NCBI RefSeq assembly: GCF_014805625.2
Contig: NW_023998415.1
Coordinates: forward strand, 42,120,700 to 42,184,699
DNA length: 64,000 nucleotides
DNA from: Glossina fuscipes
Lineage: Eukaryota > Arthropoda > Insecta > Diptera > Glossinidae
Direction of reading: 5' to 3'
The notes below the pieces were generated by a model, which was not told the DNA's origin, ran no database searches, and saw only the letters and a program-made list of their open reading frames with translations. Within the stretch, counting starts at the first letter, position 1. Every line of letters begins with the position of its first letter. Below, piece by piece: positions 10,861-46,200 of this stretch. The translations under genes and the position numbers were made by a program.

Positions 10861-10989
10861 TCTTTTACAGCACCACTGCGAAAGACGTTGCCATCTTCAT
10901 GATAATAATTTAAAACAACGCAGACAAATACGAAAAGTGGTGCATAGGTCGCGCAGTTCTAGCATATGACGCGAATTCAAACGTTTATA

Positions 10990-11630
10990 TTCACCTTCAC
11001 ACACAACGGAAATAACCTCTCAATTTCAAATTTGACAGAAACATTGGAAGTTCTTGCACGCAGGTTGTAATTAAAAGTGAGCCAAATCGGTCGAAGGACA
11101 CGCCCACAGCGCTACGAGAACGGAGAACAACTCTGTTTTTAAAAAGTAATACCAAATTGATACTTCGATCATTATTCGAAAATTGCGGCAGATAAATCTG
11201 CAGAATTTCGAACGCATATTCTATAGGCGATGCTGTAGCATTTGTACAAAAATAGAAAATATAACCATGCCTAACCAAGTGCAGTGTTTTTTTTTAATAC
11301 CTTTATAAGGCGCAGAAAGAAGCATCAAAAATCCCATAAACTATATAAATTCTTAGCCAGTTTTAAGTTTGGAATGCACGATTCATCTGTACACCCGCCT
11401 GTCTGCGCAATTGTGTAGTATTTGCGATGAACATCCTTCCGTTAGCGAAAATGGGGATATCGCCTACAAACTGGCACAAGAAATTGGAACTTATTTAAAC
11501 TTTTCCGAAGATACGAAATAAGCAGCCGTGCTCACTCCAAAATTTAGTTCTTTGTCTTTGTTAGGATAATGGTGATGGGTATAAAAGATTCGATCGCGAC
11601 CGAATATCATTTTCTTACTTGTTTTCATTA
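10990..11630 (-). repeat. Dispersed repeat family A, reverse-orientation copy
   Basis: Read on the minus strand this matches the copy at 35516-36405 in order. It starts with ACAAGTAAGAAAATGATATT and the palindromic core TTCGGTCGCGATCGAA, then a TACCCATCACC motif and a GCGCAGRCAGRCRGG (GTCY-type) block. The blocks around 11235 (ATGCTGTAGCATTTGT) and 11040 (AAATTTGACAGAAACATTGG) correspond to about 36015 and 36170 on the other strand. The element has no recognisable ORF. Its end abuts the acceptor of the SLC22 exon starting at 11638. Confidence 0.75.
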
Positions 11631-11637
11631 TTCTCAG

Positions 11638-12001
11638 ATAATTATTATATTCAATTGGTGTTATTTTACTTGGGTAAAATGGCAATAACTGCGAGCTTTC
11701 AAGTTCTATATTTTTTCACATCGGAAATATTTCCAACCACATTACGCAATAGCCTCTTGTCATTCTGTTCGATGACGGGTCGTTTCGGTTCAATGTTAGC
11801 AGTCCAGACACCACTTCTAGTACATAACTAAAGTAAACAATCGCGATATTTATGCGGTGAATGCATTTACACTCTTTACAGGCTAAATATTTTGTAAATG
11901 CTTCTCCCATATTATTCACAATTACTGCGCTCACTAGTGCGGGCTTATCACTGTTATTCTCTGAAACGACAAACAAGATCTTGCCAAACACAGTTAAGTA
12001 A
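11638..12001 (+). pseudogene. SLC22 organic-cation transporter, C-terminal exons (probable relic)
   Basis: Two exons encode the last two membrane segments and tail of an SLC22/Orct-type major-facilitator transporter. The first, 11638-11819, contains [20 protein letters not shown] then [16 protein letters not shown] and QTPLL. The second, 11882-12001, begins AKYFVNASP and ends NTVK then TAA. They are joined by a 62-bp intron (donor GTACAT at 11820, acceptor TTTACAG ending 11881), phase 0. The first exon opens with two bases of a split codon after TTCTCAG, so upstream exons once existed. I find none in the preceding 11 kb. Two normally conserved prolines look changed: APQTPLL reads AVQTPLL, and PETTN reads SETTN. 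I infer a decayed or truncated gene. A live gene with distant 5' exons beyond the window is the alternative. Confidence 0.6.
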
Positions 12002-12049
12002 ACCAATGACATCGGTGGAACAGAGAAAACCAATGCAATCGCAGTATAG

Positions 12050-12859
12050 AGGATTTTGTTAATCTAAAAAGTTCCTTTGGTATTCAAGTTACGTATGTAT
12101 TTACGTCAATGCGTATGTATGTGAATTCTCCATAAACTTGCGTTTGGAAAATACGCAGATTGAAAAAAATAAATATTAACTATGGTGTACATAATTTGCA
12201 CAATTCACATTTATTGAATCTTTTGTTACCTTTCAAAAGATTCAGACACGTTAGACTTGTCCTTCAGAAATACGTCAAAGCTATATAGCGGCTAGATTAA
12301 ACATTATTCGTTTATCGCCCCTTCCGTTTGCCTGTAGCTGTTGCACGACGTCAAAATCGAGTTGAGAATATCTAACCCTAATCTAATTAACTGACTGTGG
12401 AAGGAAGCGCAGTTCGAAAGTGCTTTGCAAAGTACCTTTACGCAACTTCTGTTATTCAGGATGCTGTGCGACCCGGCCATCACACTACTACTCATGTCGA
12501 CCAAAGAAAGGCCTTCATAGTTTTTGGTCGTCATAAATCGACCTTAACGCGAATATTACCTAATCAAATATTTCGATTCGAAATTTTCAATTTAAACATA
12601 AACATAAACATGGCATTAATTTCAACTCCCTTGTTGGGATTATCTCTTTAATATTTATCGTGTGAGTAAAAGAAAATAAGTCTATCACAAAATAGGGATG
12701 ATCGACATGTTTTGAATCCAATGCAGAAATGATTTTACGGACAAAACGAATTTGCCGAGATATTGGAAGATTTAAGATTTAAGAAAATCCTAACTAATAA
12801 AAGCCTTGTTTAATTTAAGCATAAAAACAATATTTTCCATCATATTTACACAATTATAT
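12050..12859. other. Intergenic stretch between SLC22 relic and polymerase eta
   Basis: It holds one unassigned minus-strand reading frame (12304-12534, listed separately). AT-rich sequence 3' of the polymerase eta stop includes candidate minus-strand AATAAA signals, for example near 12209. I saw no other gene. Confidence 0.4.
12304..12534 (-). CDS. Unrecognised short reading frame, 76 codons
   Basis: The frame starts MTTKNYEGLSLVDMSSSVMA and ends SYRQTEGAINE. Its composition is less biased than most chance frames here, with leucine, serine and asparagine typical of small helical proteins and no low-complexity run. I do not recognise a family and see no clear splice-linked partner. It sits about 330 bp beyond the polymerase eta stop on the same strand. 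It may be a small gene, or equally a chance frame. Confidence 0.2.
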   Translation of the reverse strand: MTTKNYEGLSLVDMSSSVMAGSHSILNNRSCVKVLCKALSNCASFHSQLIRLGLDILNSILTSCNSYRQTEGAINE

Positions 12860-15800
12860 TTAATTAAAGAAACTCGTAATTGGTTTCGTAATAGTTTTGC
12901 TCTGTGTGGATTGTGATGCAGGCAAATTTAGTCGTTTCTGTGCGGTATCGGGACAAGATTCTTTAGTTTTAACTGTGTGAACTGCAAGTTGATTAAGCTC
13001 TCTTTGCAGATTCTTGGCCACATGAAAATCTTGATGTTCCTGTGCGCTCTCTTTACTAATGTATTCTTTGCATATATCACAGAGTATTCGATCACTTGTC
13101 GACTCAGTTTCCATGACATTTCGATTCTCTTTCAATTGTTTTGGTTTAAAAAACTTTTTAATATTACCCATCGCAGATGGCTTTCTAGTATCAACATTGC
13201 TATCTTTTTTAGATTTCTTCGTATTTGTACTCGATGTTGGCGATTTTGATGTATGGGCAGATTTTGTTTTGATAGTGTTTCGATATTCAAGCCGTTGTTG
13301 TTCGCTTAGCTTCTGAGCTATGTGACGATCATTGTGTGTTTGAATAGAAACTGGGTTATCCGGAATTTCACACCCACACTCAGTACATTTTGTTAAAGGA
13401 AGTAGTTCAGGCTTGTGCTCAGGAATTGCATATTCAGCATAATCCAACTGATAATCACTTTGCATTTTTTCAACATTTTGATTCGATTCCTTTAATTCGT
13501 TTTTAATTTCACCATCTGCCGCCTGAGTAGTTTCGTGTCTAACGCTCTTGGGAGACTCATCTTGCAGAGTTCGTATATCATCAATAAGGTCACTTAATTC
13601 ATTTGCACTTGGGTCCTCCTCATAACTTTCACTTACTCGTTTTATTTTGGATGGACGCGATGAAGGACTTCGCTTGTCATCAATTTTCTTTTTCGAGTCC
13701 TCATTATCTTCGACCTGAATATCATTATCTTTTCCATTTTGTTTCGGTTGATTTTTTTGCATGTTATTTGATTTTGTCATCGCTTCCAGAAAAAAGCTTC
13801 GAACATCTTTCGTCTTAACTTCTTTTGGTAGAGCCTGCATCGACTGCTTGTCCGGTTTTTCCATTTTGTTTTCTCTTGCTTTAAAAAATTTTTCTTTACT
13901 TTCCTCTTCGTTTACATCGTCGCTGATTCTTCTCTTCTTAGCTGCTTGTTGGGCGAACATTTCTTGCAGCTTATTTTGACCATTGGATATTGTCTCAAAT
14001 TTACCCACACTTATGCCCAAAAATTTTATTGGATTGTTCAGTACGCTTTCGCTGCCAACACGATAAAATTGCTTAGTATTTGATTTAATTATTTCAAATG
14101 CATTTTTGGTTAATGCCTCGACCGTGTAATTAAGTAGAGGAGCCGAACGTGAACTGGATACATCTTCACTGTCGAACTCTTGCGCAAAACTTACTACCAT
14201 TTGCTTTGCTCGGCGATTATTTTCAATAACATCTTTCTCTAAGCGATCAATTATTTCGTTCGCCAATTCTTGAAGCCAGTGTTGCAACGTCTTTAAGCCA
14301 GATATGCTATTACGTCCGGGAAATTTCTTACAACAACCGATGCTTTTAGAGTAAAATCGTGGTGTTACTGCTTCTAAATCGATTCCCCGGCAAATGTTAT
14401 ATAGCCAAGATCTACGTAATTCAAAATACATGGCAATTAGTGCAGAAATTCAGGTACACTTTATTTATACCCATCGCCTAAAATTTGCATTTTCCCTTTC
14501 AAGGCAAACATTAAACTTATACATACATGTTCATGGGGAAATTCAATAAATTTCAAAAGCAAAATGTCCTAAAACAAATGATTGTTCAATGGAGGAGTTA
14601 TACGTGTGTTCAAAGTCGATCAGAGTAGAAACGATAATTTGGTTTATTTACTGCATTCGGTAGATACATGTTTATGAGTACGCGCCGCGTTTTTAAGTTC
14701 AACTTTCACTTAATGTACGGCCCGCCCTACCCATATTTGATAAATGCGCGATCGAATAACTAATTAATAGTATTATTAAATATCTAAACAGATAAGCGAT
14801 GGGTATCAAAGGTTCTATCAGTGGTTTTTATTTTTTTTATTTTTGTAAACATACCCGTTTTTTTCATCAAACTTTTGTTGCAACTCCGATTCAGTAAATT
14901 TTATTAATTGGGCGACATAACGAATATTTAGCCGTTCGCAAACTTCTTCTCCAAATTTACCTCCTAAGCCTTTAATTTTTCCCAATGTTAAGGTTTCGAA
15001 TAATTCCGGAATTTTGGCTAATGGCAGTATAGTTTGTTTGTTGGGCTTATTAATACCGCAGGCTAATTTCGCTAGAATTTTATTATGAGCAATTCCAGCA
15101 GAACATTCATAGTCAGTTTGAGCTTTCACAGCGGCACGTATTTCGCTTGCTATAGATGATCCAATCAGTAGACGTATGTTGCTCAAACGTAAGGATGGGA
15201 CGTTATCTCCGTGGAAACACCGAAAATCATCATTATCATCATTCTCATCACCATCATATACCGAAGTCTTGTTATAACACTTGGTAATGTCGGTAACAAA
15301 GTCACCTATGCCATCGTAGCCGACTACATACGTACTAACCAGTTCTTGTGGTTGTAAAACAAACGAACCCTACGTGAAATGTGTATTCGAAGTTGACAGG
15401 CTGGAATTGAAAACAATCTAAAATACCTCATTCATTAACTGCATACGTTTATTTACTGCTTCGGTAATGTCCAGATAGGCCTCGTCAACAGATGCGCGTT
15501 CCAATAAATTGGTAAAATGTTGTAAAACATTTGCTACCTCTTTACCAGCCTCTCGATATTTAGTCAAATCAGCCTTTTCCCGTACGTTTGGCACTTTAAC
15601 CAATTGAATCTCTGGGCACTGTTCCTTAGCTTCATCTCCCCGCATATGCCGGGTTACGCCTTTAGCACGGGCCGCATAATTTACTGCTATAATTCTAAAA
15701 TTACATAAAATTCGTAGAATTATTGAAAAAACCGCAACGACACCTGTAGATAAATTATTATAATATTCCAGATAGATAATTGTGTTTTCTGCGTTTCCCC

Positions 15801-16690
15801 AGACACAATGGATTTCAAATAACAAATCCACTCATTTTTGCCAAGAATATATTACAAGAAAACAAAGATTGTTTAGACATTTTTTCGTTCAAATAAAGAA
15901 TGCAAAATCTTCATCATTATATCGGTAATAAAAGGTGCTCCTATTTCCAAGTCTTTTTGGGTGTTGCGCATATGTAGAAAAACTTAATATACTCTTGTAC
16001 CACAAGATGTGTCAGGTATAAAACGCATAGTCGTAGAAACTTACTGCTTCCAGTCTTCGAATAACAGAGACAGTTTCAAAGTCTTCATTAGCTAGATCGA
16101 AATCTGAGATAATATGTTATGCGTTCTGCAGTTTCTAAGAAATTTTGAACTATTTCGATCCTTTGAACTTGATACGTAGCTCCCTGTGACAGATTGCACA
16201 TTATTTTCAAAAATTCTAGAAGGACGTTTCAAAAGATATGCAACCAATTTTAATTTTTTTCGTTTTGTCACATTTCTGGATTTAAGCGAATAATCGCAAG
16301 ATACATGTAAGCAAATCGCAATCCGAATACGGCTGAAAAGGGAGGCAAAATTTAAATAAGGAAAACGTATTATTTAATTCCATGAACTATTGAACACTTT
16401 CGTAACGAAATAAGTAGTAATACGTCAAATGCAATAGATTAGGTTTGTTACGACTTCGACTGGTGCCAAAAGCAGCAAACATAATCTTGGGAACCTCAAT
16501 TCACAGAAGTAAAGGAATGATATTGGATAAAATGCGAAAAAGAGTCTCTGAGATCTCATGGAAAACCTGACATGAAAAAGTTAAACTTGAGATTTTCGCA
16601 AATTTTGCGTAAAACGACGAAAACACAAATCTCGAAAATATTCTCTCTTAATATTTTTATAATTCTTTTATTTCCTGCCTAATATACATA

Positions 16691-16727
<37 letters not shown>

Positions 16728-17236
16728 GATGGAAAATGTTATCAGGGTTTATAGGAATACATTTTCGGATAATTTTACCCTAAAGCCCAAAGCTCAATGT
16801 CTAATACCAGAGAAGACAAAAATACGTACGTATGGTTTATTAATACTAATAAAACTACATTTTCGGTAACAATACCACAATGCGGTTAAATGAAGTTTCC
16901 CTATCTACTATCTTAAGTATGTTTTTGTTAAAATATAAGATAAAAGTAGAAACATTTCTTTAAATTTCGTTGCCAAAAATAACTGCGCTACTATTCTTAT
17001 AGCACAAAACTGACTATGACTATGTTTATAAACTTACCCGCCTCCGCGCCAAGCATTATACTGAACCACAGCCAATGGCTTGCCTTTCAAAGATGAGTCG
17101 AGTTTTTCTACATTGAATAAATTTATTCTACATTGAAAACAATTTATGTTTATTGAGGCAGTTATTCACCTTCCACTTGACAGTAAAAGCAATCCATATC
17201 TATGAGCAATATAATTCGATCATATTTTTGTACCAT
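12860..17236 (-). CDS. DNApol-eta: DNA polymerase eta (Y-family translesion polymerase)
   Basis: The enzyme copies past UV-type lesions such as cyclobutane dimers in the nucleus. Exons (minus strand): 17236-17170, 17107-17038, 15694-15427, 15369-14855 and 14411-12860. They total 2472 bases, giving 823 residues with all phases matching. The start MVQKYDRIILLIDMDCFYCQ fits the family's N terminus, and the ATG sits in a CCAATGG context. Catalytic acidic residues are visible as IDMD (D13) and SVDEAYLD (D116, E117), matching the human DE pair. The nucleotide-binding YAARAKGVTRHMRGDEAK stretch is residues 52-69. The thumb/little-finger region follows (GIAHNKILAKLACG). Two C2H2 ubiquitin-binding zinc fingers lie at about 649-670 (CTEC...HNDRH) and 751-770 (CDIC...HQDFH). 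A PCNA-binding box, KPITSFFN, forms the extreme C terminus, and an internal IKKFFKPK is a second PIP/RIR-like motif. No broken residue seen. Introns are 62, 1343, 57 and 443 bp. Confidence 0.93.
14412..14854 (-). other. Polymerase eta intron 4
   Basis: Donor GTATGT at 14854, acceptor TACGTAG ending at 14412. The codon GG|A (glycine) is split across it. A TTTATACCCATCGCC motif near 14459-14475 suggests a short fragment of dispersed repeat family A inside. Confidence 0.75.
15695..17037 (-). other. Polymerase eta intron 2, 1343 bp
   Basis: Donor GTAAGT at 17037, acceptor TTTTAG ending at 15695. The glycine codon GG|A is split. Contents are AT-rich with a TA array at about 16699-16724. No exon-like reading frame or nested gene was seen. 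Confidence 0.8.
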
Positions 17237-19114
17237 TGGAATAAAGTTTTTACTAGATGATGCACCACCGCCGCCGGACATTTATATTTCTTTCTTATTT
17301 GTGTATATGCAATTAACAAAATATATTAATGTATATAATAATTACAACTCAAATTTTCACGCAATTGCAAAATTTTCAAAATGGTGTTGCCAACAATCAA
17401 AAACTAAAAAATATTTCATATCCACCTGTTCCAAATGAAAACAGCACAAATGAGGTAACATTTAAATATTTAGTGTTTGTTTGATGGATACGTACTTTTT
17501 CTTACTTTCTATAGGGAATTTTACGAAACGAAGAAATGTTTAGTAAATAAATTTCATTATGATGTTTTGCTTACAATAAAATAAAAGAAGATATATTGCC
17601 TATTTATTACTTATGCGGAAGGAGAAAAAACTTTTAATCCCTTAGTTAATTTAATTGTTTTCGTTTTATCCACATATGTCTAAGGTTTTTTAAACTTTTA
17701 AGTCATTCGAAAAATATTTGTAATATTTTTCTTTTTGTAGCCTGCGGAAATGCGCACGGATGACCCCATAACGTCTATGTATTTTTAATGAGCGCAAAAT
17801 TCGAACTCGTTTTAACCAAGTCTGCCTCTGCCTATCTGTGTAACATTGTTATGTTGGTATCTGCGTGACCATTATGTAAGAGGATTAAACAAAGGATTTC
17901 ATAACAAAATAAAGGCTTAACAGTTTATCCTTGTAAGCGTTACACGCCGCGATATCAGTAAATGTACGAAACAAGCAAAGAAGGAAAGGCCGTTTAAGAC
18001 ATGTGATGTGTTTTCACCTAATAGTTTGCAACGAAGCAAGTTTTATGCCAAACCGGTTTTATGCATGGATGCACATCCGCTGCCGTACGAACATCATACA
18101 GCATACAAATACTAGCTTACAGAAACCGAAGCGGCACAGCAGCGAAATTGTGTAAAAGGCCGGTGCGAATAGCGATCGTTCTGGAATTGTACTTCAGTAG
18201 TCAGCAGGAACAAGTAAGCCGAGTGAAATCGCGAACTTTAACAAAACGAGCTGTTTCGTCCCATTTGACCGCGCCTGCCGTGCTAGCTTTTTTTCGTTGC
18301 TATCCTGTTATATTGTACCCGTCTGCAATTTTATGAGCACTTAGACCTAAGAAAGGGAACTTTATCAAATAAAAAAGAAACAATATCGGCTAAATTATAT
18401 CGGAAGCCAAATTATTTTATTTTTTCAAGTTTATAAACACAAGCCGCGAGTCATACCCCAACTATAAATAAACCGTTCAAAAGTTATTAGTATGATGTTT
18501 CAATAAATTGATGATATTGTGGGCCGTAATTAAAGCAAGGGAGCGTTTAAGAAAATCTTCTAATTCTAGTAAACATATTAACATATTCAGATATAAAAAA
18601 AATATTTACCGATCCATCACTCGCTACTTTTTGATAGGACTAAATTGGGTTGTCTTTACCAAATAGTTCGAGGAAAGCACAGAAAATAGGACCACGTTAT
18701 GTGCATATATATGATTAGTTTATGTTAAAGTAAAAGATATCTTGTCCTTAAGTATAACGTAAATAAAAAAGATGTCAAGGTAACATTTTTGGAAAGAGAT
18801 TCTATTTTATAAGATATATGTTAAATAAAATCTATTGCTTAAAGCATTCCAGTTTATATAATGGTTTTAAATCTTCAGTTATTGAATAACGGAATTATTC
18901 TATTATCTTTCCCAAAATATTTTCGTTTTTTTTTTTTTTTTTTGGTTTTTATTTGGAACTTATTCAATGCATTTATTTCAATTAATTTAATTCATTGAAT
19001 TCAATTATAGTCTCGTGGCTGGTTTTTAAAGCTCTTATGATCTTTTAAATGAAATTTTCTTTCGATCAGAAGCGATTTTTTTTCTTATTCTATATTTGTG
19101 TGCGCATATGTAAT
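17237..19114. other. Intergenic stretch upstream of polymerase eta and 3' of the first yellow gene
   Basis: No supportable gene. The open frame at 18061-18336 (+) is relatively GC-rich but matches nothing I know. A minus-strand AATAAA at about 18972-18977 lies about 140 bp past the stop of the minus-strand yellow gene and is a plausible polyadenylation signal for it. Confidence 0.5.
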
Positions 19115-21461
19115 CTACCAACAACCTCGCATAACTGCTAATTGCTGTGTGGCACCACAACCCATACGATTTTGCATAAAATCTGGAAAATTACTTTGAA
19201 GGATACGCATTGTATTGTGTCTATAATCGGATATAGCGTGTGTTGCCAACTGGCACGTTGTGCTGCGGTAAACTGGCTTAAAGTTGTCCTCCTTAAACGT
19301 AGTATTAGTATCCCAACGATAGACTTCGGCACTGCCTTCATTACGGAAGAATATTGAATTACCATTATTCGTACCAATAATAACCATGCGTGACGATTTT
19401 TTACCTACTTCTGCGAAATTGAAAAATCGAGAGAAAACACAACTGAATTAAATTAGATGAATTAGATAATTTGTTATGCATTACCACAAAGCCAGACATA
19501 TAAGAAGAATGAAGTTATATTATATTATTAATAGTGACCAGCACATAGTCTGGCATATTGTGCTTGAAAGATGCAAAGAAAATCCATTGCTCGGATACAT
19601 AGTAAGCATATGGCGTACATCTATCTATCGTATATATTTCTTATATATAATTTATTTATATGGTATGGTGGAAGCATTTCAGAGGTAATTGTTTAAAGTA
19701 AAATATTGCACAATTTGTATGACTTTTTATCCCATGCAAGCCAGTTTCTAATCCCATTTAAGGCATTTTCAAACCTGAGGATTTAATTTCAACGAAAAAA
19801 AATTGAAGATACGCTTTAAAACTCCAAAATAAATTCTGCGCAATTTCGAGTGCAAGTGTTTAAGAGATTTCTTTTGTAATTTTCGAAAGATCTATGGACG
19901 GGTTTCGTCGATTTCGTTCGCACTTAATCCAACAAGACGCGATAAGAGAAAATTCTAAAATCAACGCTGTTTTGTTACATAAAAGTTTTGAAGTCATAGT
20001 CGAGATTTTAGCAGACTTTCGAGTCGCATTTTATATAAGTCTAATGCCCTCCCTAGGGATATAAAAAAGCAAGCATTTATAATTGAAAAAGCTTAAAGCA
20101 TATTTTAGATACGCTTATCTACGATATGTGACGCAGTAAGTATACCGAGCAATTACCAAAAATATACGAAAAATTTTAAAATGAAATTTATAACGTCCAA
20201 CCATCCAAAATCCATTAGAAATGTTATCAACCGTAATGCGATTTAGTCAGACGTTATCTTCCGCATACCTGGATTATATTAAGCAATATATCAAGCTTTA
20301 AGTGCAGACATGGTCTTGCGCCGCAAAGGGAAAGCTTTCATTTTAAATGCCATATAAATATTTCCGCGCTTGAAGATATTCACGGATCATTGTCATCATT
20401 ATCATTGACAGTGACGAAAAAAATTGTGCCCTCTTAGTTACACCATCCAAGATTATCTATCTTGCTATCTATCTTGCTACCTGCCTTAACAGTTAGTTTG
20501 AAATCTTAATTGGAAAACTGTTCGAGCGCTTTCCCATATTTTGAATTTTTTTTTTTTTTTCATTCTTACCCAAGACCCTTCCATCGGCCGCACCAGTTCG
20601 CAAATATTCCGCTTTAATAGAAAACAGGCGATTTGTGCTTAAATAAGTGAAATACAACTCTGCAGTACCGCAACTATGACGTATTAATGCTAAATATAAG
20701 ACATCACGGTTTCGTCCTCCAGCTGTAACAGCTCTTGGTAGTACGGCACGAAAGCCTCGATCCACTTGTACATTAAAGATGATAATAGCTCGATTAGCCG
20801 CGTCACTAACATACACAAAACAACCGCCAGTGGGAGCATAATCTACAGCTAAATATTGCAGTCGTGAGGTATTTGTACTTAGACCGTCTAAATCGATCAT
20901 TTTCAAGACTTTTGACGATTTTGATGATATAGCCCACACTTTGGGTGAACATTTTCGTACTGGGATTTCCAAAGTGTTCACAATTCCGGTATCCAATAAC
21001 CAAATGACTTCATTTTGATCGACCACTATATCGATCACAGATTGCATAGCTTTACAATTTCCCTCCTCTTGCATGTTCCAGCATGGATAAGGCGCAAAAT
21101 TGACATAACAAATACCCGGTTGCAAATTTGCTTTAACCAAAGTCGCAGGGACCCCGTGTCGATAGCGTGGCAGAGCCAAATAAGCGATATCGCCGATAAT
21201 TTGAGCGCGAGTAGCAATAACATTTTTCGGTATATATTTGCCTGAACTCTTAAATAATGATTTTGTTGAGGGACAAGGAAACTCAAATTGTCCTCCTGTC
21301 CATTGAATAACACTGCCATTGGCATCGCACATTCTATCATTGATAAATAAACCGTATTTATCGTCATCGGTCGCTTTAGCGAAAGGTACGCAAGCACAAA
21401 TACAGATAAATAAGATACTTAAAGAAACCTTTGAATATGCAAACTTTTTATGCCGCCGCAT
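19115..21461 (-). CDS. Yellow/MRJP-family secreted protein
   Basis: Two exons, 21461-20570 and 19410-19115, are joined across a 1159-bp intron (GTAAGA donor, TTTCGCAG acceptor; Glu codon G|AA split) to give 395 residues. The open frame continues seven codons upstream, but only from a TTG, so I chose the ATG at 21461-21459, whose -3 base is A. Residues 1-30 are basic then strongly hydrophobic (SLSILFICICACVPFA), a signal peptide. The body has yellow-family landmarks: ATRAQIIGDIAYLALPRYRH, GVPATLVK, FAPYPCWNMQEEGNC, VIWLLDTGIVNTLE, LAVDYA and ELYFTYLSTNRLFSIKAEYL. The end carries NFPDFMQNRMGCG. The family forms beta-propellers involved in cuticle pigmentation and, for some members, eggshell hardening. 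Head-to-head pairing with the gene at 24943 suggests the yellow-g/g2 pair, but I cannot settle the paralogue. Confidence 0.88.
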
Positions 21462-21525
21462 TATAAGAGATATGATTTTCAAAAGTTTAGCACTAAAATG
21501 TTTCTAACAATATATGGGCGTTTGG

Positions 21526-22827: not shown

Positions 22828-22927
22828 NNNNNNNNNNNNNNNNNNNNNNNNNNNNNNNNNNNNNNNNNNNNNNNNNNNNNNNNNNNNNNNNNNNNNNNNN
22901 NNNNNNNNNNNNNNNNNNNNNNNNNNN
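22828..22927. other. Assembly gap, 100 N
   Basis: Exactly 100 N, a conventional placeholder for a scaffold gap of unknown size. The real distance between the two yellow genes is therefore uncertain. Confidence 0.98.
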
Positions 22928-24875: not shown

Positions 24876-24942
24876 TTTATTCAGTATAGACGATTGGTTT
24901 CATTTCTTTTTTGTTATTCATTAATCTTACATCTTAATAAAA

Positions 24943-26399
24943 ATGTTAAGCAATTTACGCATAGCTTATGTTTTGCTATTAATCACAAAAATTAGTGAAA
25001 CAATGGTCAGTACATCCATCAGCGAAGAGTCCACTGTGTTGGAGAGATCGAGTAAAAGTTTTTTAAAAGAATTGGTATTTGAATTAAGCGGCAGCAGCCT
25101 TTTGTGGCCATGCGAATCGACAAAACATATTTATATACAGTCGGGTCGTTATGTACCACGTAATGTGATAATCACACGAGCACAATTGCAACGCGATATA
25201 ATGTATGTGGCTTTGCCGCGTTACAAACACGGCGTACCCTTCACTTTAGGCAAAATTCAATTGACAAAAGGACAATGCATAACGAAAATAGCACCGTACC
25301 CTTGCTGGGCTATACAAGAAGAGGGTAACTGTCAGGCCTTACAATCGGTTGTCGATATAAAGCTAGATCATTATGTAAGTACAATCTTTTATTTTCAATA
25401 AGAACACGTGTAATCACTGCAAAATTATATATATATATATATTATTATTATTATTATTTATTATTATATATTATTATTTATTATATATATTTCATTTTAT
25501 TTATCCGACCCAAACACTGATCCATTTCCTTACTTCCTTATCTATTTACCCCACTTTTCAATTCCGTATTGATTATGATGACGAGGCAAACATCAACCCA
25601 CTCACACATTTTTATTCTTTATAGAATCAAGTCCAAGCTCACTGATTGGCCATTGGTGAAAAACACAATTTTTTTTCATTTTTCTTCATTTTCTTGGTGT
25701 TATTAGGGTTTTCTCTGGATTTTAGATGTCGGTATTGTTAATACCTTAGAACAACCGATACGTCGTTGTAAGCCAAAAATTGTAGCCATTAACACGCTGG
25801 ACGGTAAAGTGGTCAAGAGTATTGATATAAACAATTTATTGACAACTGCTTCACGCTTACAATTTCTGGTCGTCGATTATGGATCAAACGGCAAACCTTT
25901 CGTGTAAGTTCTTAAGCTTCAAATTGTATACGCAACTCACATCACTATGTAATGTAAAAATCAAAAGATCAAAAAGTGCATTCATATTTTAGAAAAGCAT
26001 GTAATTATGTCAAAAAAAAAACAAGCAACAACATCGTCATCATACTGAATATATGGTTAGTGTGAGAGGCGAAAGTGATTGTCAACGTTAATGTAGAGAT
26101 CAAAATATTGAAAATTTCTCGAAATTCCATGCAAATATTTGGTAAGGATATCTAAAATTTCAATGTAAAAACATTCTCAATTAGCATATATCTAAACATA
26201 AAATGCTTATGCCAGGGCATGTACCCTTTAGGCTGTTTTTCCCAATAAATATTTATACACAGGCGCACCTTTCGTAAAAATGGCCGTATCAAGCCTTTCT
26301 ATACCGTCTATAAAGACGTGCGACGTGCAAAAAAAAAAAAACAAAAAAAACAGAAAATTATATTCGGTCGTGACCGAACCTTTTACAGCCATTGCCGTT

Positions 26400-26434: not shown

Positions 26435-28291
26435 AAAAGAAATAAATGTTCATGCTCTGTAAGCAGTGTAGAGTGGGCATGGCTGGTTTTTTCGAATTTC
26501 AAAATAAAAGTTTTTCTCGCGTAGGCGTGTCCTTGGAAAAGTTAAAATCACTTCGGAGATAGAATAAGGAAACGCCCACAAGAGCAAAGGATCTTAAAAT
26601 ACGCTAAAAATAATAAGCATTTGAATAAAGTTTCAGTTCATCTATCTATTTGAAATGCTGAAGAGCAATTTATATAATTTGGTTTTGAAATACTAAACAC
26701 ATCGTAATTGCCCAAAGGCAAAAAAAGCGATCTTTTCTCGATTTAAAAAATTTCAATTACATACTTTCGGGCTTAGCAATATTTTAATACTTTTGCATAC
26801 TTTAAAGCTTACGAAGATCCTTCGATGGGGAAAACGTTGCCGTTCTGCGAAAACTTTCTGAAATTGATAAAGTTGTAAGCGACTTCTGCTTCTTTAATTA
26901 TTATATTGAACACAGAAAACTTAAGCAAATAAATTAATTAATTTGACATAATGAGAAAATATTTTAAGCGAAATAGGACAGGCAAAGGGCACACAAATTG
27001 TTAAAAATACATTCTAAGAGTAAAGCCTTAAAGCATTAGCATCTAAGGCTAGCGGCTTAATTCAAATGTCTACCGCTTTTGAGACATGCACTCACGACCA
27101 TTGACTTGTCAATCAAGATCCTTTGCCTACTCGACCATTGGATGACCTGAAATACATATAATGAAAATTAAATTTATTTATTACCGAATATTTATTTATC
27201 CCTACATAACTCCAAACAGGTGATTGGTTGAAAACCTTCTCGTCGTTTACATCAAGAATATCCCGTCGAATAGAAGTATGATTCGAGCGATTTTGATGTT
27301 GATCGGCCGATCAGAGCAAATATCAGTTTCAAGGTCAAAGTGTCGCATATCACGATCTTCTTTTCCTATGTTTTCGTTCATCAACATTAAGAACGCGATA
27401 TACTTCGGCAATGCAAGCTTTCCCGTTCTTCGTATGTCTCATCTCGGAAAATATTGATTCAAACATTCATTTTTTTATCTGATTATATTTATCCGATCAA
27501 TAATATATCAGAAATTTTCTCTTTATTAATTATTTAATTCTTTTTAGTTATATCGCTGATGCTGGCGCGCATAGCATTTTAGTTTACGATATTGCTGCTT
27601 CTAAATCATATCGGATCGTTTTACCTAAAGCAACATCCCCCATCACTGACGTCCTTTATATGGTCTTAACATCGCCTGGCACTGGCAACTCTACCTTATA
27701 TTTCACATACCTCACCTCAGCGAATCTCTATTCGATAAAAACAGAATATCTGCGTATGGGCAAAGGTGGAGACGGTTCCATCGTTAGTGTTGGTACAAAA
27801 CCATATGGAAAACAAATGGTTCTGTTAGGTGCTGATGGTGGTAATGCATTATTCTTTCGTTATAAAGGCGAAAATGACATTTACTTATGGAACACTAAAA
27901 CTTGCTTTAAGATCAGTAACTTACAAGAGATACAACGCGGCGAAGATTGTCGCCTCACTACGCAGGTGCGTGAAATGACACATGCGCAAAGAAGAAATTT
28001 ACGTAACGCTATAAAAATTAACGCTTATACAGCGCCTAAGAGATCTTTGTATTCAAAACTGATTAAGTTTTATGGCGTTATTCTTGTCTCCGATATGTCG
28101 ATATATCGTTTGACTTGTTGTTCTTTTTTTAATCCTTTTTGCGGTACCTTGTTTTTCTCTAGATATTGCCGGGCCATAAACATTTTATGTGGGCTTTGGA
28201 AAGCAATTTTCATGATTTCATATCTGAGCGCACTGGTTGCAACGGAGCATCTATTGTCTTACATCCGGTTCTACAAGAGTGCGATGATTAG
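24943..28291 (+). CDS. Yellow/MRJP-family secreted protein
   Basis: Four exons, 24943-25374, 25707-25903, 27548-27965 and 28163-28291, join in frame into 391 residues. The N terminus (MLSNLRIAYVLLLITKISET) is a signal peptide. Family landmarks follow: VIITRAQLQRDIMYVALPRY, APYPCWAIQEEGNCQALQSV, FLWILDVGIVNTLEQPIRRC, LVVDYG, YIADAGAHSILVYD, LYFTYLTSANLYSIKTEYL, VGTKPYGKQMVLLGADGGNA and ENDIYLWNT. The last exon encodes ILPGHKHFMWALESNFHDFI, then RTGCNGASIVLHPVLQECDD and TAG, closely matching the family C terminus. Introns are 332, 1644 and 197 bp, all GT-AG. The second intron carries a family A fragment and a SINE copy. It is paired head-to-head with the 21461 gene and shares its protein architecture but has two more introns, so the pair is an old duplication. 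Confidence 0.9.
26345..26560 (+). repeat. Dispersed repeat family A, partial copy in a yellow intron
   Basis: It begins AAAATTATATTCGGTCGTGA and holds the palindromic core TTCGGTCGTGACCGAA, then a GTGGGCATGGCTGG block and GTAGGCGTGTCC as in the 35516 copy. Truncated before the GTCY block. Confidence 0.75.
27008..27150 (-). mobile_element. tRNA-derived SINE, diverged copy 3
   Basis: Read on the minus strand it follows the two copies near 41.5 and 42.1 kb over most of their length. The head has GGTCGAGTAGGCAAAGGATC, then GTCAATGGTCGTGAG, GCGGTAGA, GCCGCTAGCCTTAGATGCTA and ATGCTTTAAGGCTTTACTCT. The head has lost some promoter bases (the B box reads GTGAGTGCATGTC), so this looks like an old inactive copy. 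It lies in the second intron of the plus-strand yellow gene, opposite to that gene's transcription. Confidence 0.75.
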
Positions 28292-28567
28292 AATAAGTAA
28301 GAGTTTAATTTCGGCGATTAAGACTGTTTATGCACATCTAATAGATATATGCTCTTAAATGCATATCACTCACTGTCTTTGTTCTCTAATACAATTTTAA
28401 ATGAAAAGCAGTACTTATTATATCTTGAGGGGCTGGAAATTACTACTACAAATGAAAAAAAAAGAAGAGCAAAAAGGAAAATTGGAATGAAATGCAATGG
28501 AATTTTAAAAATTTCAAAGATGTACATACAAAAGCTGAAAGTTAAATGGTTAGCTATGTAACGTTTG

Positions 28568-35187: not shown

Positions 35188-36660
35188 CTATATGCTTTTA
35201 TTAAAGCTTAATGCTGCACGCAATTTGTTGCGTATACGAGGCGAAGTCCAACGCGAGCTTGACGAATTACCCGAATTGCTGCCAGTGCCACGTAAATCAT
35301 TTGGCGAAACACCTTCGTCAACATCATCAGCTTCCGTTTTAATTTCCATCTTTTGAACAATTAAACGTAAAAGTTGATGCTGTTGCTCTAAAGTACGCCC
35401 GATATCGCGAAGCTTACGTTTTTGTTTCTCTAATTCGCTATTAATGTAATCATCATTATTTTCAAATGGCATCGCATCCAGTGAGGCTTGAAAGACAAAA
35501 GAGGCAAGAAAATAATACAAGTAAGGAAATTATATTCGATCGTGACCGAATCTTTGATACCCATCACCGTTACACTAAAAAAGGCAAAAAATAGGTAAAA
35601 ATGCTAAATTTTTATGCTCCATAATACGGAGTGGCTGGCGTCTGATTTTTTCTATTTTTAAAATTAAAATTCTCGTCATACGGTCATACGGACGTGTGGG
35701 CGTTGTAGGCGTGTCCTCGTAAAAGTTTAAATCACTTTGCAATTCTTTTGCAAATTTGTAGGCGACATCGTCATTTTCGCTAACGTGAGAATGTCTACCA
35801 TAAATATTACGCAGTTGCGCAGGCAGACAAATGGACAGACAAAAAGGCGAACATGTTTAGGTGCATTTCAAATATGAAATTTGCCCAAGAATTTATCTAT
35901 TTTGTGGAGTTTTTAAAGCGTGTTTCGGCGACTTGTAATGATATTGAAAAAAAAAAAGAAGAATGTTTGCACCCTATAGTACTGGATAGGCATGATCAAT
36001 TTATTCCATTTTTGTGCACAAATGCTACAGTATCGCCACTAGAATCAACAATTTCGAAAAAATCAATTTTTTAATCCTTTGCAAAAACAGCGGTGTTCTC
36101 ACTTTATGTAGTACAATAGGCGTGCCATTGGACTGATTGAGCCCAGCCTGTATGCAAGAACTTTCAATGTTTCTGCCAAATTTGAAGTCGATAGTTTCAT
36201 TTTTGCGGCCCGAAGAATCTTTACAACAGAACTTACGCAGACAGACAGACAGACAGACAGACAGACATACATACAAACGGACATGCTTAAATCTATTCAG
36301 AATTTGATGGTGATCAAGAACATATACACTATGATGCTTTCTTCTTGGCTTTGCAAATAAATAATCAAATAAAATGAATACATCCCTCATGTTTCGGTGA
36401 TGGATATAAAAGCAAAAAAAAAAAAAAAAAAAAAAACAAAAAACAAAAAAACAAGAAAATTGTCATTTATCTTTTGATTCCATCCGTTCTCCTTACTTAC
36501 TATCTTCGGTAAAGGGATTTGAAAACCATTTTCTTAATATAAAATCAAAGAAACCCATTTTACTTTTTGTCTCGTTCGGATATTCAATTAATTCCATTTT
36601 ATCAATTTTCTGCAACCACATCTGAGGAAGTTTACGCTCCAGTTCCGTATGCAGGACGAC
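35188..36660 (-). other. TrpA1: TrpA1 exons 14-15: post-S6 cytoplasmic tail
   Basis: Exon 36660-36501 encodes VVLHTELERKLPQMWLQKID through RKWFSNPFTED. Exon 35486-35188 encodes NNDDYINSELEKQKRKLRDI, a coiled-coil helix, then a Ser/Gly-rich linker and a basic end RNKLRAALSFNKSI before TAA. The Thr codon A|CC is split between them. Confidence 0.92.
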
Positions 36661-39600
36661 CTGAAAGTTCGAAAGTTCAATAAATTTTATTTATTTACCT
36701 ATTTTTTTTTTTTTTTTTTTTTTTGTTAGGCTAATTAGCTATTGGGGTTGACGTTATCTTTTGTGACGGGTTATGTTATCGACTTTAGTTATTTCCGGTG
36801 CATTATTATATTTGTTTCGTTGTAAAGTTAGACTTCATAATTACAGCGGTTTTAAGGATTACACATTAGCGTCGTTCCAGCAAAAATTATAAAACGAGAA
36901 AAACATAATAGTGAACGGGTTAGAAGGCCTCACTTCTTTCGATAGCAGAGAATTGTGAAACTTAGCCTGGCTTTCTATCCACAAGTTTTGCCGTGAGATT
37001 CAACGAAATTCAGGACATTTTAGGATAATAGAGAAAGTACCAGTTTAGAAGAGTTATAAGATGCTGGATGATACTAGAGATTAGGCCCAGTCATATGACG
37101 AGTTTGACTACAATTTAGCGGTTCTCAAAGCAAAATGTCCGAGAACGTAAAGCGAGTGAGTAGTGGCGCACACACGAACGGTGAAGGTGAAAACGTACTC
37201 CTTCCTCCGTGAGCACGCGGATTAGCGTGCTTCAGATTTTAAAAGTTTCAAAAAAGTTGCTATCAAAAGTCGGGCCGAGAGTTCAAACATTGTCGCCTAC
37301 TCAAGACACTCGTGGCACTTATTTCTCCCCGGGCTATCATCATACGTTTTGCAATGAGCGAAAAGCCATGCTCTCGCCTTTTCAACTCTACATTTTTCGT
37401 ACCATTTTTCTGCGATGCAGACTTCCGCAGGCATGATAGTGCCTGCATGGAGGAAGAGAAAGAAATGAATGAGTTCCCAATAAATTTCAGGTCAGGTCTA
37501 TAGCGATGCCGCGATTGGGATCAGGAAAAAGATAGTAGGACATGCCCACATTAATTTTAAACCGATTAAGAATTTATATGTAATCGAGGGAACTAATCTA
37601 AAGAATCTTCATTCTTCGACGGTGCGATGCAATTCAAAGTCATGCTATGTGATAATCGGAAGCTTAAACTTAAACTTAATATGAAAATGATCCCAATCGA
37701 TCAATTAACATGGTTACAAGTTGAAAGAACAATGCGCCGTTTTTTTTATTAGAAGATAGGGAGGTAGTAGGGAGTATTCAAGAGTCGTCATCATGCGAGA
37801 TTTCCCACCTGGTTATTATTAAAAATTGCAAAAAATGATAAATATGCGAGCGATTAATTAATTGAAAATTTTATTCAATTATAGTAATTACGCCTTCAGT
37901 GATTTGCGATAACGATAACGGCCGCATTATGTTGCAAGATAATATTATATTATTACAAATCGCTAAATATATAAATGAATGGTGATAATGAGCAAAGTAT
38001 ACCTGCATTGCCAATCTTTTTAGTTGAGCATTACGTCTTACGGATTCTATATCACCGACAGCCAGACCAATAAGTAGATTCATTAAAAGTATCGGCATCA
38101 ATATCATAAAAATACCTAAAAATTTTTAAAATTAACTTTAACTTGCTCTTGCTATTGCTACGCGTAGAGATGGGTATGAATGGGCTTTAGATCACGAGTA
38201 CTTACTTAATATTAAGAATGATGTTACAGGAACTTTCAATTGGTCACGATAATAGGTATTGACGTAGGTGCCTACAAAATCCAATTCACCTAACATCATT
38301 GAGAAGGTACGCAACAATGACATCGGTATATTAGAGAAACTTAAATGATTTGGTTGCGGATCGATAATCTGGAAAAATGAATATATGAAATCGTTTGATA
38401 AAACGTTCAATCACTCAATTTTAATTCTATCGCGTCATTCATCTTCGTTTACCTTCGACAATAGTATATAAAAAGCCAAACCGAACGCTATAATTAGTAT
38501 CGAGAAAACCAATAATACTTTAATAAGCGTTTTTAAAATCTCGAGAAACATGACCACATAAATGCCAACCTTTAAAGTGCAACAAGAAGAGCATAAATAG
38601 AGAATAAATAAGAAAAGAGCAAATATAATGATATTTAGTTTGAGTTGAGATGAAAGCTCTTGCGAATTTCTGACTTACTTGATCGAAACGTTGCAAGAAT
38701 AATAGTAAACGAAACCATGATAAAAATACCGATATAGAGGCGGCCGAATAGTGAACATTTGTTATAGCTCCGTCTGTTTTACAAACTGGTGCAACCATTA
38801 TCAAGGTTGATATGTATAAAATCCATGATATCAAGTTAACAATTTCCAAAATATAATGCAAACGCTGCTGATAGATTTGAATCAGTTCGCGTAACGAACT
38901 CAATGCTATATAAACAATTATGGTACCGGCGCATACACGTATTGTTGGCGATTGACTTATGCTCTCATAACAATCATCATGTGATATTGAATTATTGCGC
39001 AATTGCAGTGAACCGATTAATGATGAGCAATCGATTAGATCGGAACTGATCGAGATAAGCAGAATATGCATTGAAATTGAAATGATTCGATAAAATTCCT
39101 AATGATAGATGAACTTACCGATTACGTATCACATTAAGATTTGCAACAAAGACACGATTTTTAATTTTAATGCCATTCATCATTAACGACGAATAAATGG
39201 TAACGAAAAGCAAGAATATGGAATAAACTAAAAGGTTCGCTAAATGAAAATATTTTCCATATGAGTTCCATTTCATTTGCAAATATTTTTGACTTAATGG
39301 ATGTGCCAGCAATTCAACGCGTCCATGATTGACCATCGTCTGAAATCAATAAAAATCATACGATTATAGCATTGGGGCCTTATATGTGTTTTAAACTTAT
39401 ATATTTGTTCACAGTCATCATCGATGATATATATGCCTCATGTTATGTTAATTTTTTGATTGCCCTTATAAATCCTAGAAGTATGCACCGGAAATACAAA
39501 AGTTAACCAAAAAAAAAAAAAAAAGAAGATGAAAAGAACAATGAATGTCCAATTTCATTCAATTGCCGTAGAGTAATAATCTCGATTCCCCTCACTAGTT

Positions 39601-41257: not shown

Positions 41258-42235
41258 TGACTATAACATCTGTCGAAAATTCTTCCTAGAAAAAACGTAG
41301 TACCTTTGGCTTTTTCAAACGAGTTGAAAGGACCAGTCATCCCCATTCACTCTTTTCGAATATAACCAAAAATAATTGTAATTTGATTAATAATAAAATT
41401 CTGATTTAAAAGCACTTAAGGGCACATAATTAAATGCATTTCTCTGCCTATTAGATGCCTTTACTTAACACATTCGCCTGAGTGGCCGAATAGGCAAGAG
41501 TCTCGACTAGCAACTCAATGGTCGTGGGTTCAAATCTCAAGTGTGGTAGAGTTTTTAATAAAGCCGAAAGCCTTAGATGCTATCGGTTTAAGACCTTAGT
41601 CTTCGAATTTATTCTCTGACTAAATTTATAATAAAAATAATAAAAATACAATAATTGTTTTGTGACATAATTAACCTAATACTGGTTCCCCATTGTCTTA
41701 TAAAGAAAATAAATATATATATATATATATTTATATATATATTTGATCACATTAATTCCTTTGAAGACGTTATGAGCTTAAGAGATGTGCATGTCAGTGC
41801 TCTTTGTGCGTCAACCTTCTTAAAAAACTACTGCTGTACAAAAGTGTGTAANNNNNNNNNNNNNNNNNNNNNNNNNNNNNNNNNNNNNNNNNNNNNNNNN
41901 NNNNNNNNNNNNNNNNNNNNNNNNNNNNNNNNNNNNNNNNNNNNNNNNNNNTTCAAATTCTTCAATTAGCATAGATTTGGCGGTTTTATGAAAAAATTCA
42001 AATCACATGCGCTCTACACATTTCATACTGTTTCCCTTTCGATAGGCCGTAGTAATGCAAAGTATTAAAAAAAATACTATCCGCCTGAGTGGCCGAGTAG
42101 GCAAGAGTCTCGACTAGCAACTCAATAGTCGTGGGTTCAAACCTCAAGTGCGGTAGAGTTTTTTAATAAAAGCCGATAGCCCCAGATGCTAGTGCTTTAA
42201 GACTTTAGTCTTAGAATTTATTCTCTGGCTAAATT

Positions 42236-42276
<41 letters not shown>

Positions 42277-43184
42277 TACTATCATTGCATATTATCATAA
42301 GTGGATATAAGTTGCAATAAGTTGCACTGCATATCATAAGTGATAATATGCAACTTATTGCAGTGTAGCTTCTAAGCAACGGCAGCAGTATATTGGGTAA
42401 ATTGGCCGCTGAAGGTATATGCTTGCGCTTGAACTTTTCGAAAACTAGTGCAATAATGGAATTATTGGTTACGAGAACTCGTATTGGTAAACTGCTATCA
42501 CACGCTATCAACATGAATTTTGTCGATTTTCACCAAAAACGAATTTCGCAGACTTAAGAATCCATGCATTTAAAAAGGGCGCATTCAAAAATCTGCTATA
42601 AAAATCCAAGAAATGCTTTATATCGCGTAAAAGGATTGCCTTTTGTAATTCATTATTACATATATTTTTTATATCTTGAGTTCGGTTGTCAGGCAGATAG
42701 TTGCATGATCCCGGTATTCGAAACGCTGCTTTTGATATTGGACAGTCCTCACTGTCTGTGTCCTAAATAGATTTCAACTGGCCGTATTTAGGCATTGAAA
42801 AAAGCTTACTACAGTAGAGTGACATGTAGTTAGGTAAAAGAAAAGATAGGTCAAACGATTCATTCATTAATTCATTGCAAGTTAATTTTAAGAAAAGAAT
42901 TTGCAGTAATTTATCTTAAAGTTATTCACGTATAAGGGATAATATATTTTTGATCGGTTTTTGACCGATTTTCCTGATAAAATAAAAAAAAAATAATTTT
43001 TGGAATAACAATTTTTTATATAAAACTTTTTTGAATTGAAAATTAAAAATATACTTACGTTCAGAGCCGGTAGAGGTATTGGGTTCGATTGTATAACGCG
43101 TTCGCCGGTTTTCTCGTCCAGTTTAGCAAACATAAAAGGACATTGCAAAAATGAAAAAGTGTACTTTATCTGAATAAGAGAACA

Positions 43185-43218: not shown

Positions 43219-46200
43219 AATAAAAAAACATGACAGAAATGACGGGGAAAAACTTTGAAGACTTAGAATAATGAGAGAATTGCGGTCTTTCACTGTCTTT
43301 ACTGTTTTCATTCTATCCCCGTAAACCGCGTGCAAGGTGTAAGGATATATTAGGAATTAAAATAGGAAAATTCTTGGACTCCATAGGTTTATTATTTGAA
43401 ATGCGCCTCACATTAGGGTTTTCATGAAAACTAATCCTTCATATGGCAGAAGGTTACAATATTTAATATATTATGACGAAAATTGTTGACGAATAATAAA
43501 ATCTGAAATGAATTAAACCTATGCCCATACAGTTTTGGTTGTGATTTCTTCCTATATAATGGTTTAAGTGATAGGTATGCCTGTATGTATAGTATTTTCT
43601 CACAAAAATATTATAAATGAAGAATGATATTGGATGAGGTAATTTAGGGTATTTAGCGGTCGACCTATAACCGACCTATAATTTTTTTACTTGTTTACAT
43701 AACGCAGAAAAGGAAGCTTATCTTGCATAGACGTTTGTTTATTTTATCCACAGCCACTTACGTAAAAGCTCTTCGAGTCTTTCTTACAATTCGCTTTCGT
43801 TATGCATTTATCCTGAACGGCTTCAAAAACTTTTGGCATCGATGCTATTAGAGCTAAAGTAACGCAAGGATGCTTATCTGATTTTAATGCCATCACCTCG
43901 TTGGCACGCTCTTCATGCGTAACCATAGCTAAAGCTGCTTCTGGGTATTTATAATAAATAGCGTAATCGATCGCGCTCATATCCATCCGATTGTATAGTA
44001 ATTTGCAGTCCATCGATAGTAAAACAGAAATGGCATGAGGTTTATTTTCCATGGTAGCCAAGTGAAGGGCGGTATTCTACAAGTTACAATATTGAAATTA
44101 AGCAAAGAAATAAAGATAACATCATTATACGCTTACACCATCCTTGTCTATTTGGTCTAAAAGATGCGAATGCACTGAATGCAATAACTCGATCGTTTCG
44201 TTGTAGCCGGACATCGCAGCCAATTGTAAAGGATTCCTTCCGTTATGATCACGATGCAATAAAGCTCCACGATTCAGTAATAATTGCACAACTCTTGTGT
44301 GTCCCTGCTGCGAGGCAATATGCAAAGGAGTTAATCCTTCACCATCACTTTCGTTAATTATGAATGAGCCTTTTTCCGAATCTAATAACTGTTTAACAGT
44401 GTTATAGCGTCCGTAACGTGCAGCAAAATGTAAAGGACTCTCATTATTGTTATTCTTAAGATTTATGCAAGCACCCAGTCTTATGAGATTTTCCAAAGAT
44501 CGTATATGACCATCGCGACTGGCGTAATGCAGGGCGGAACAGCCTGTATTATCTTTTTCATTGAGCAACAACTCTAATTGGGCTTGCGTCTGCGTTTTGC
44601 AAACTTCTTCGGCAAACTCCTGCAAACGTCCACCGTTCATTATAACCAAATGCAGGACATTACGAGAACTGGCATCTTTGATACCAATATTAGCCCCTAA
44701 TCGTATTAGCAAATGTACCGTCTTCCAGCCGGAACGTGATGCAGCCAAAAGTAACGGCGACCTATGCTCTTTATCTAGCGCATTAACGTCGGCACCTTCC
44801 TGCACCAAATACTCAACGATATCCGGATGATCGAACATGGACGCACAATGCAATGGAGTCATTTTTTGCACATCCGTGCGACTTAAACAAATTCTTTTCT
44901 CCATTGGTTGCATAGTAAACATTAATTTAACTATCTCGATCGCTCCCTGAAATGGAAAATTAACTTATGTATATAATATTTTTTGATATCAATTTTTTCA
45001 TCTATCTAACTAAACATTTCAATGAGTTAATTAGCTGAAATACAACTCTGAATATTATATATCAGCTTAGGTGTAACCATCTGCATTCATTTCTCCCCAA
45101 TATATTTGCGTATAGATATTGTAAGAATAGACAATGCTTAGTCCTTTCAATTCGGAAACACTCTAATTGCATCGATAATATGCTTATAAGCAACAAACAA
45201 CCAAAGTTAAGAATTTTTCATATTTTTTTTTTCAAGAGACGACTGCATAAAATGCCAAATGTTCCCGAGTGTAACGCAAGGTGGGATTGAGATAATTGCT
45301 ACAATTTTATTCTTGGCTGAGATGTATGATAAAATTAACAAATTTTGTATATATAGTAAATTTTAAAAAATTTTCTATAAATTTTTTCGAAATAATAATG
45401 TAAATATATTGAACTTTTCAAAAAGATTTTAAATAAAAATATTTTATTTTGGTAGTTTTTTTAAATTTTTTTTTTTTTTTTTGCAATTTTAAAGAAGAAG
45501 AAAAAATCCATTGAATACTTTTAAGAATATTTATTAAATTAGTGATTACATCAATCTTTCGAGATTAACGAACAAACTGACAAATAATTCAGACTTTGCT
45601 TGCGTAAGTGAAGTTTGCGCAACTTTGGTACACTGGAAGGATTTTAATCGTGAAACTGAGTACTACTTCTACTTCTTAATAAAAGTACATTGCCACTGTT
45701 CATTGAGAGGGACAGCTCACCTAACCTTGGGCATTAAGGTATGTGTATACCCATTTGTAAGCAGCTAAAATAGTAGTAAACCGAATGATGGGTATTTTTA
45801 AGGGTTCTAGTAATCCATTCCATCAGCATTTGCGACGTTTTGCCTTCAAATCATTTTTATTACACATCTTGTACCACATGCCAAAAACTATCATGAATAT
45901 CGTTTGATTTTTCAGGCAAAAAAGAGACCGCTTTTATAAGACCTTCAGAGTATATTGCTTACGATTGATTATTCTTTTCGTAGCATTTGAAAGTAAACGA
46001 TAGGCATTCTTTATTCCTATTAAGATAGGATTTGAAGTTAAAATCTAATATTCTGACAGTGGCAAGAGTTGAGACAAAACAACTGTAACTTGGCGAACGT
46101 ACTCTGAGCTCGAGTGTACAAACGAAATATGAAAGCGGCTACGATCGTTTTTATATGCGATATATTTTAGAAAATTGAGTTTTAAAACTCTGTGCAAATA

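Follow-up and report, generated by a model that had tools for sequence, protein, structure and literature searches.

A 64,000-nt stretch of the tsetse fly Glossina fuscipes (C2:42120700-42184699, hereafter the window) carries three copies of a dispersed repeat that is very probably a tRNA-type SINE moved by a LINE, and an I-clade-like LINE family is its probable partner, as judged from the sequences of both. The SINE family consists of a tRNA-like head with A and B boxes, a body of ~85 nt that resembles a LINE 3' UTR, and a (TAA)n tail, giving a unit of ~185 nt. Its SINE identity, which had been proposed in a sequence-only reading of the window, is upheld by copy number, target-site duplications, pol III-type boxes and a LINE-like tail. 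The length of the unit and the indels between copies speak against a coding function.

Copy 2 (42079-42267, plus strand) is full-length and belongs to a young subfamily, differing from most aligned rows at 1 of 174 nt. Copy 1 (41472-41655, plus strand; tail end approximate) is older and lies 9% off the majority sequence. Inspection of its sequence and a box scan place its A box at 41483, its B box at 41527, a T5 run at 41552-41556 and a degenerate tail behind these. The two had been noticed as same-strand repeats about 600 bp apart, and we see 94% identity over 85 nt (41472-41556 / 42079-42163) and 86% over 97 nt in a second block (41552-41648 / 42161-42257), with 607-609 nt between corresponding parts. 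Both of these elements are real, but the count of two is not, as the window contains a third. This is an old and decayed copy on the minus strand (copy 3, 27006-27145), 25% off the majority sequence and with 76.9% identity over 134 nt. It was scored by nhmmer at E 4e-44 with a profile that itself included copy 3. No TAA tail can be recognised in it, and its flanks were inspected by reading alone.

The window has assembly gaps of exactly 100 N at 41852-41951, between copies 1 and 2, and at 22828-22927. Directly 3' of copy 2, the stretch 42285-42362 is made palindrome-like by a pair of exact inverted repeats, with arms of 13 and 14 nt, and is possibly part of another small element. There is also a second dispersed repeat pair, unlike the SINE, at 11386-11625 (minus) and 35514-35839 (plus), the members of which are 75-83% alike in two blocks.

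From our reading of the surrounding exons, all three SINE copies look intronic and antisense to their host gene. Copies 1 and 2 have on one side an ankyrin-repeat exon (44125-44964, minus), which is TRPA1 by the names of its database matches, and on the other an open frame that looks channel-like (38520-39098, minus), for which a Pfam search gave no match. Copy 3 lies between two plus-strand open frames, of which 27504-28358 is of the yellow/MRJP type by Pfam and 24925-25401 gave no match in a Pfam search. A yellow-type exon at 20496-21503 (minus) shares 95% identity over 92% of its length with a Glossina palpalis gambiensis protein, the next named matches being from Calliphora, Lucilia and Drosophila at 67-69%.

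The assembly (366,281,344 bases, 709 contigs) was searched with copy 2 as query, as the sequence-only reading had suggested, and this revealed a dispersed family. All 40 scored matches, the best 40 of 3,327 first-look candidates, cover query positions 1-162 at 99-100% identity (rounded). They comprise copy 2 itself, 23 matches at the next score and 16 one score lower, which we read as one and two mismatches to copy 2, respectively. A 26-nt signature that spans the head-body join and includes T5 gave 2,780 matches with up to two mismatches, and its control gave none. For an exact 40-mer taken from the young subfamily, the assembly has 52 matches (backward control 0). The window's copy 2, which differs by one base, is not counted in this number, and at least two pairs of the matches (C68/C69, C544/C545) seem to lie on duplicate contigs. 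The contig pairs C68/C69, C122/C123, C544/C545 and C25/C27 have matches at identical or near-identical coordinates, which suggests that these are duplicate (haplotype) contigs and that the genome-wide counts are slightly inflated.

Abundance was also estimated from a random sample of 200 kb (600 N), made up of 20 of 180 random 10-kb stretches drawn from nine large contigs. Four copies in the sample are near-complete and six are fragments; it also contains one LINE 3' end, and the reversed sequence yielded nothing. Five of the fragments are head-only, and two have E near 0.001-0.002. The profile used here included the window copies and the four near-complete sampled copies, the latter having first been found by BLAST. 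Because four such copies were found in 0.2 Mb, we infer ~7,000 near-complete copies in the genome, with a Poisson range of ~2,000-19,000, if the sampled contigs are typical.

The young copies are extremely alike: 21 of 29 rows are identical from CGCC onward, although the 30 loci cut out of the 40 scored matches are the most similar copies, so that youth is overstated. Since identical copies stand at different loci with different duplications, amplification is very recent. Three sampled copies (L040, L041 and L055) form a second subfamily, being 2-5% apart from each other, and L040 is 8.2% apart from the young subfamily. Two loci show rearranged or neighbouring copies. At L025:2913-2972 and its upstream flank, a copy with an internal deletion has the head start joined to the body, with a duplication of ~13 nt recognised by eye, and at L037:1501-1848 a young copy lies directly upstream of an older one on the same strand, the older copy being without part of its head.

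Rather than a few copies with no duplications elsewhere, the genome thus holds thousands of copies, and 26 of the 35 distinct copies compared are flanked by exact duplications of 9-17 nt. The set comprised 38 near-full rows, taken from the cut-out loci, second copies within them and the sampled copies. Exact duplications of at least 8 nt were found in 28 of these rows (actual lengths 9-17 nt), and the number of distinct copies was reached by dropping L024, whose flanks are those of L023, and both rows of L008, which is the window itself. As a control, 3' flanks were swapped between copies, which gave 8 nt or more in 50 of 740 cases. Three of the 26 duplications are low-complexity (L009, L017 and L023). 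The nine distinct copies without an exact duplication include copy 1 and five that are otherwise young (L010, L011, L014, L021 and L035).

Copy 2 had been described as bounded by a perfect 16-bp duplication. The exact 16-mer TAAAAAAAATACTATC is indeed present on both sides, at 42066-42081 and 42268-42283 (plus strand), and an abutting exact repeat of at least 16 occurs under the same rule at 5 of 62,810 window positions, with copy 2 among the five. No duplication of this kind flanks copy 1. The true target, however, is probably 13 nt (42066-42078), with the following ATC (42079-42081) being the element's own 5' end, because other copies start ~3 nt upstream of the position equivalent to 42082, with ATC at the element start in most of them. 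The second ATC, in the 3' repeat, is probably due to chance or microhomology. Across the family, duplications stop 0-6 nt, mostly 2-4, ahead of CGCC, and the element start is therefore placed at about ATCCGCC. The duplication starts with T..AA in 21 of 26 copies, compared to a background of 5,293 of 19,919 window places (27%). This represents an overlap with the TAA tail, as tail-primed reverse transcription would leave, and the longest-exact-match rule somewhat favours such T..AA / TAA overlap.

The tRNA-like head of copy 2 (42082-42152, plus strand) was defined by a box scan and by comparison with tsetse tRNAs. Its A box at 42090-42101 (TGGCCGAGTAGG) has 0 mismatches to the consensus and its B box at 42134-42144 (GGTTCAAACCT) has 1. 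The same scores were obtained for copy 1, and the A-to-B spacing is 44 nt in both. Elsewhere in the window the scan, which allowed at most 1 mismatch in the A box and 2 in the B box, gave 5 weaker pairs, and it did not detect copy 3. The head had been likened to a class II tRNA of the Ser/Leu kind, and as it stands this part of the sequence-only reading finds no support: the box spacing in the head is that of a class I tRNA, its 44 nt standing against 53 nt at the four tsetse Ser loci measured (other tsetse tRNAs, 43-46 nt), with Leu outside the comparison. The comparison covered 40 tsetse loci among 63 matches, from which ARAGORN read 36 distinct sequences, some differing only in their called ends; the set was without Leu, Asn, Pro, Tyr, Trp, Val, Asp and His.

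Among the tsetse tRNAs compared, the best overall match to the head is Thr(CGT), with z 8.3-8.9 relative to shuffles. The 3' half is closest to Thr(CGT) and the 5' half to Ser(CGA), and it is possible that the parent was a mixed or much-changed tRNA. In a preliminary tRNA comparison, later replaced by the tsetse loci, Thr, Lys, Leu and Ser came out close together with no clear parent. Neither Rfam nor ARAGORN at default settings called a tRNA in the head; at a lowered threshold, ARAGORN gave copy 1 a poor tRNA-Leu-like fold. The fold of the head is no better than that of shuffles (z -0.26).

The body of copy 2 (42153-42237) resembles an I-clade-like LINE's 3' UTR, and is followed by the (TAA)n tail (42238-42267), which lies within a tandem array at 42237-42278 that runs into the duplication. 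The AT-rich TAA tails noted earlier are present as (TAA)n in copy 2 and as degenerate TAA/AATAA in copy 1. The LINE itself was found in a sampled stretch, L044, through its 3'-end match to the SINE. It is a LINE-like element ending at ~8,560 with several open frames, in which Pfam recognises a zinc knuckle (zf-CCHC, 20.7 bits, just below the cut-off of 20.8), Exo_endo_phos_2 (4e-12), RVT_1 (1e-18) and RNase H (2e-5; 25.3 bits, just below 25.8), with the endonuclease and reverse transcriptase above their cut-offs. The order of endonuclease, reverse transcriptase and RNase H is also that of the Drosophila I element. The domain order and the TAA tail suggest that the partner LINE is I-clade-like. 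Among named proteins, the reverse transcriptase piece comes closest to uncharacterized ones from G. fuscipes fuscipes (84-86% identity, with 43-67% of the query covered). The random sample contains another LINE reverse transcriptase, at L042:3231-4253, which is distant from that of L044 (22-26% identity).

The sequence directly after the L044 stop codon aligns to the entire non-tRNA part of the SINE, and scores 76.5 without the tail, compared to a mean of 28.8 and a maximum of 53.5 for 2,000 shuffles. A genome search with the C-terminal piece of L044 gave 4,002 candidates, of which the best 150 were scored (all E < 1e-112, 76-100% identity). Twelve LINE 3' ends picked from these best 150 matches to one LINE copy, together with L044, make a set of 13. 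All 13 (12 of 12 besides L044) align to the young SINE body, with 60-68 identical of 84-96 columns (68-74%) and scores of 72-81.5, where shuffles reach at most 54 (z 6.8-9.4). Every one finishes in TAA-type repeats, some of them imperfect, and the blocks AGCCGATAGCC, GCTAGTGCT and TTTAGTCT.AGAATT are kept in most. The similarity is confined to the SINE body and tail and does not extend to the whole unit. To judge from these alignments, body and tail are derived from, or common to, the LINE 3' UTR.

Because the LINE-SINE identity reaches no more than 68-74%, the exact partner subfamily is not among the 13 LINE ends. The same modest identity would fit a reading in which some LINE outside the I-clade-like family moves the SINE, the common 3' UTR being of ancient origin and the TAA tail alone mattering now, through relaxed recognition. 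This has the SINE part in common with our preferred explanation, and it gains from the fact that 12 of the 13 LINE ends come from the best 150 matches to one copy, so that a closer LINE may exist elsewhere. We nevertheless consider it unlikely, as the entire body, beyond the tail, can be aligned in 13 of 13 LINE ends with sequence blocks kept in most, and one stem pair is changed on both sides between LINE and SINE.

A small hairpin around AAGACTTTAGTCTT had been pointed out in the body. The inverted repeat is present, but it is absent from the minimum-energy fold of the body. Compared with shuffles, the bodies have a somewhat more stable fold (z -1.67, -2.91 and -1.86), and in an alignment fold of 8 sequences 2 of 16 pairs are changed on both sides. 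We regard this support as too weak for claiming a recognition hairpin in the body.

With an I-clade-like LINE as partner, the dispersed and recently amplified copies, their duplications and TAA tails, the TAA overlap and the common 3' end point to the following likely route. RNA would most likely be transcribed by pol III from the tRNA-like head, and its common 3' end would be recognised by the LINE reverse transcriptase, the LINE enzymes being used in trans. At TT/AA-like sites the target would be nicked by the LINE endonuclease, so that the TAA tail could pair with the cut strand. The duplications, of 9-17 nt where exact, would then be left by target-primed reverse transcription.

One feature sits awkwardly with efficient transcription by this route. 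Between the head and body of copy 2 there is a pol III terminator-like T6 run (42159-42164, plus strand). Among the aligned copies, from which alone these frequencies come, TTTTTT is present in all 29 young rows and T5 in four copies (copy 1, L040, L041 and L055), while four diverged copies (copy 3, L045 and the second copies of L033 and L037) have T3-T4. A run of the T5-T6 type normally ends pol III transcripts. The internal run would thus speak against efficient full-length pol III transcription, and the SINE template would have to arise via terminator read-through or from another polymerase.

That the T6 of the young subfamily should terminate pol III, and that the body is LINE 3' UTR-like, would also suit a short, internally deleted, non-autonomous LINE that captured a tRNA-like sequence and is transcribed by pol II, leaving the A and B boxes as relics. 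This seems quite improbable, since copies 1 and 2 both retain the boxes at a class I spacing of 44 nt, and since the near-uniform 5' start right upstream of the head is what is expected of pol III starts. Retaining the tRNA-type SINE as our preferred reading, we tentatively raise the somewhat doubtful idea that a SINE and an I-type LINE are mobile as a pair in a higher fly today, and that the youngest SINE subfamily gained, rather than lost, a pol III terminator between the promoter and the LINE-recognised part. If so, genomic RNA would come from regular terminator read-through or from pol II.

There is a negligible chance that the family is instead a TRIM-type LTR element with a tRNA promoter, of the Helenus/Ajax kind, or a solo LTR. 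Elements with tRNA-like sequences, some classed as tRNA-Ser, do exist according to the portion of PMC10886601 available, but the aligned copies have no terminal repeats, their duplications vary from 9 to 17 nt compared to the 5 bp given for Ajax in that same portion, and they combine a (TAA)n tail with a LINE 3' UTR-like body. Segmental or tandem duplication of one locus, instead of retroposition, might account for copies 1 and 2 being on one strand and 607 nt apart, but can be dismissed almost entirely, as their flanks are not alike, copy 1 has diverged by 9%, and near-identical counterparts of copy 2 stand on other contigs with different flanks and duplications of their own.

Viral and prokaryotic sequence collections gave 0 matches to exact head patterns, and one of two body-pattern searches also gave 0. 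The other, with a 19-letter body pattern, gave 7 viral contigs. For six of them the profile similarity is limited to 25-28 nt around the pattern, and for L006 it covers 48 columns; by BLAST, L005 and L007 show one 49-nt stretch at 78%. We reject all seven as chance matches, with profile E of 0.0006-0.02 in contigs that had been picked by the pattern and no head or tail.

The closest described pair is Gecko/MosquI of Aedes, set beside the tsetse pair by description only and not by sequence. Gecko tails vary (poly(A), other repeats), unlike the (TAA)n tail found here, and the host is a mosquito rather than a tsetse fly. The likeness is that Gecko, of Aedes aegypti, is a tRNA-headed SINE in a fly with a LINE tail of the I type, paired with MosquI and other I elements in the available part of PMC3747384. 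The Drosophila I element, again likened by description, ends in TAA repeats according to the same part of that source, but is an autonomous LINE, and so the likely kind of partner rather than a SINE. In Lepidoptera, the accessible text on PxSE1-3 (PMC8010984) and HaSE1-2 (PMC3272025) describes SINEs with a tRNA-related head, body and tail, in an insect host of another order. PxSE5 has a 3' end in common with a LINE, but there the SINE is 5S-derived and the LINE terminates in ATGT repeats, as given in the excerpted text of PMC8010984.

In the parts of the literature available to us, SINEs are reported to be absent or nearly so in higher flies. Drosophila is described as lacking them and the calyptrate Phormia regina as having 39 insertions (PMC5084420). 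The latter include SINE-3_QC and SINE-4_QC, and are mostly distantly related or highly mutated as far as the available text goes, in contrast to the thousands of copies, partly identical, seen here. SINEs are termed "very scarce" in six Glossina genomes, with a significant part of the dispersed repeats left unclassified, in the part of PMC6721284 available. For most dipterans, the corresponding part of PMC6327564 gives SINEs as <1% of transposable-element content. It also reports a tRNA-derived SINE superfamily in all species investigated, which counts against novelty, and Glossina is not named in that text. Our literature search found no description of a tsetse SINE family, Repbase, Dfam and SINEBase being outside this search.

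Thousands of copies, some of them identical, would alter the "very scarce" picture of SINEs in tsetse flies, unless the family is already in those libraries under another name. SINE insertions could serve as homoplasy-poor markers for populations and species of this disease vector, and the SINE would be a natural partner for testing RNA recognition by I-type LINEs in a lineage near Drosophila.
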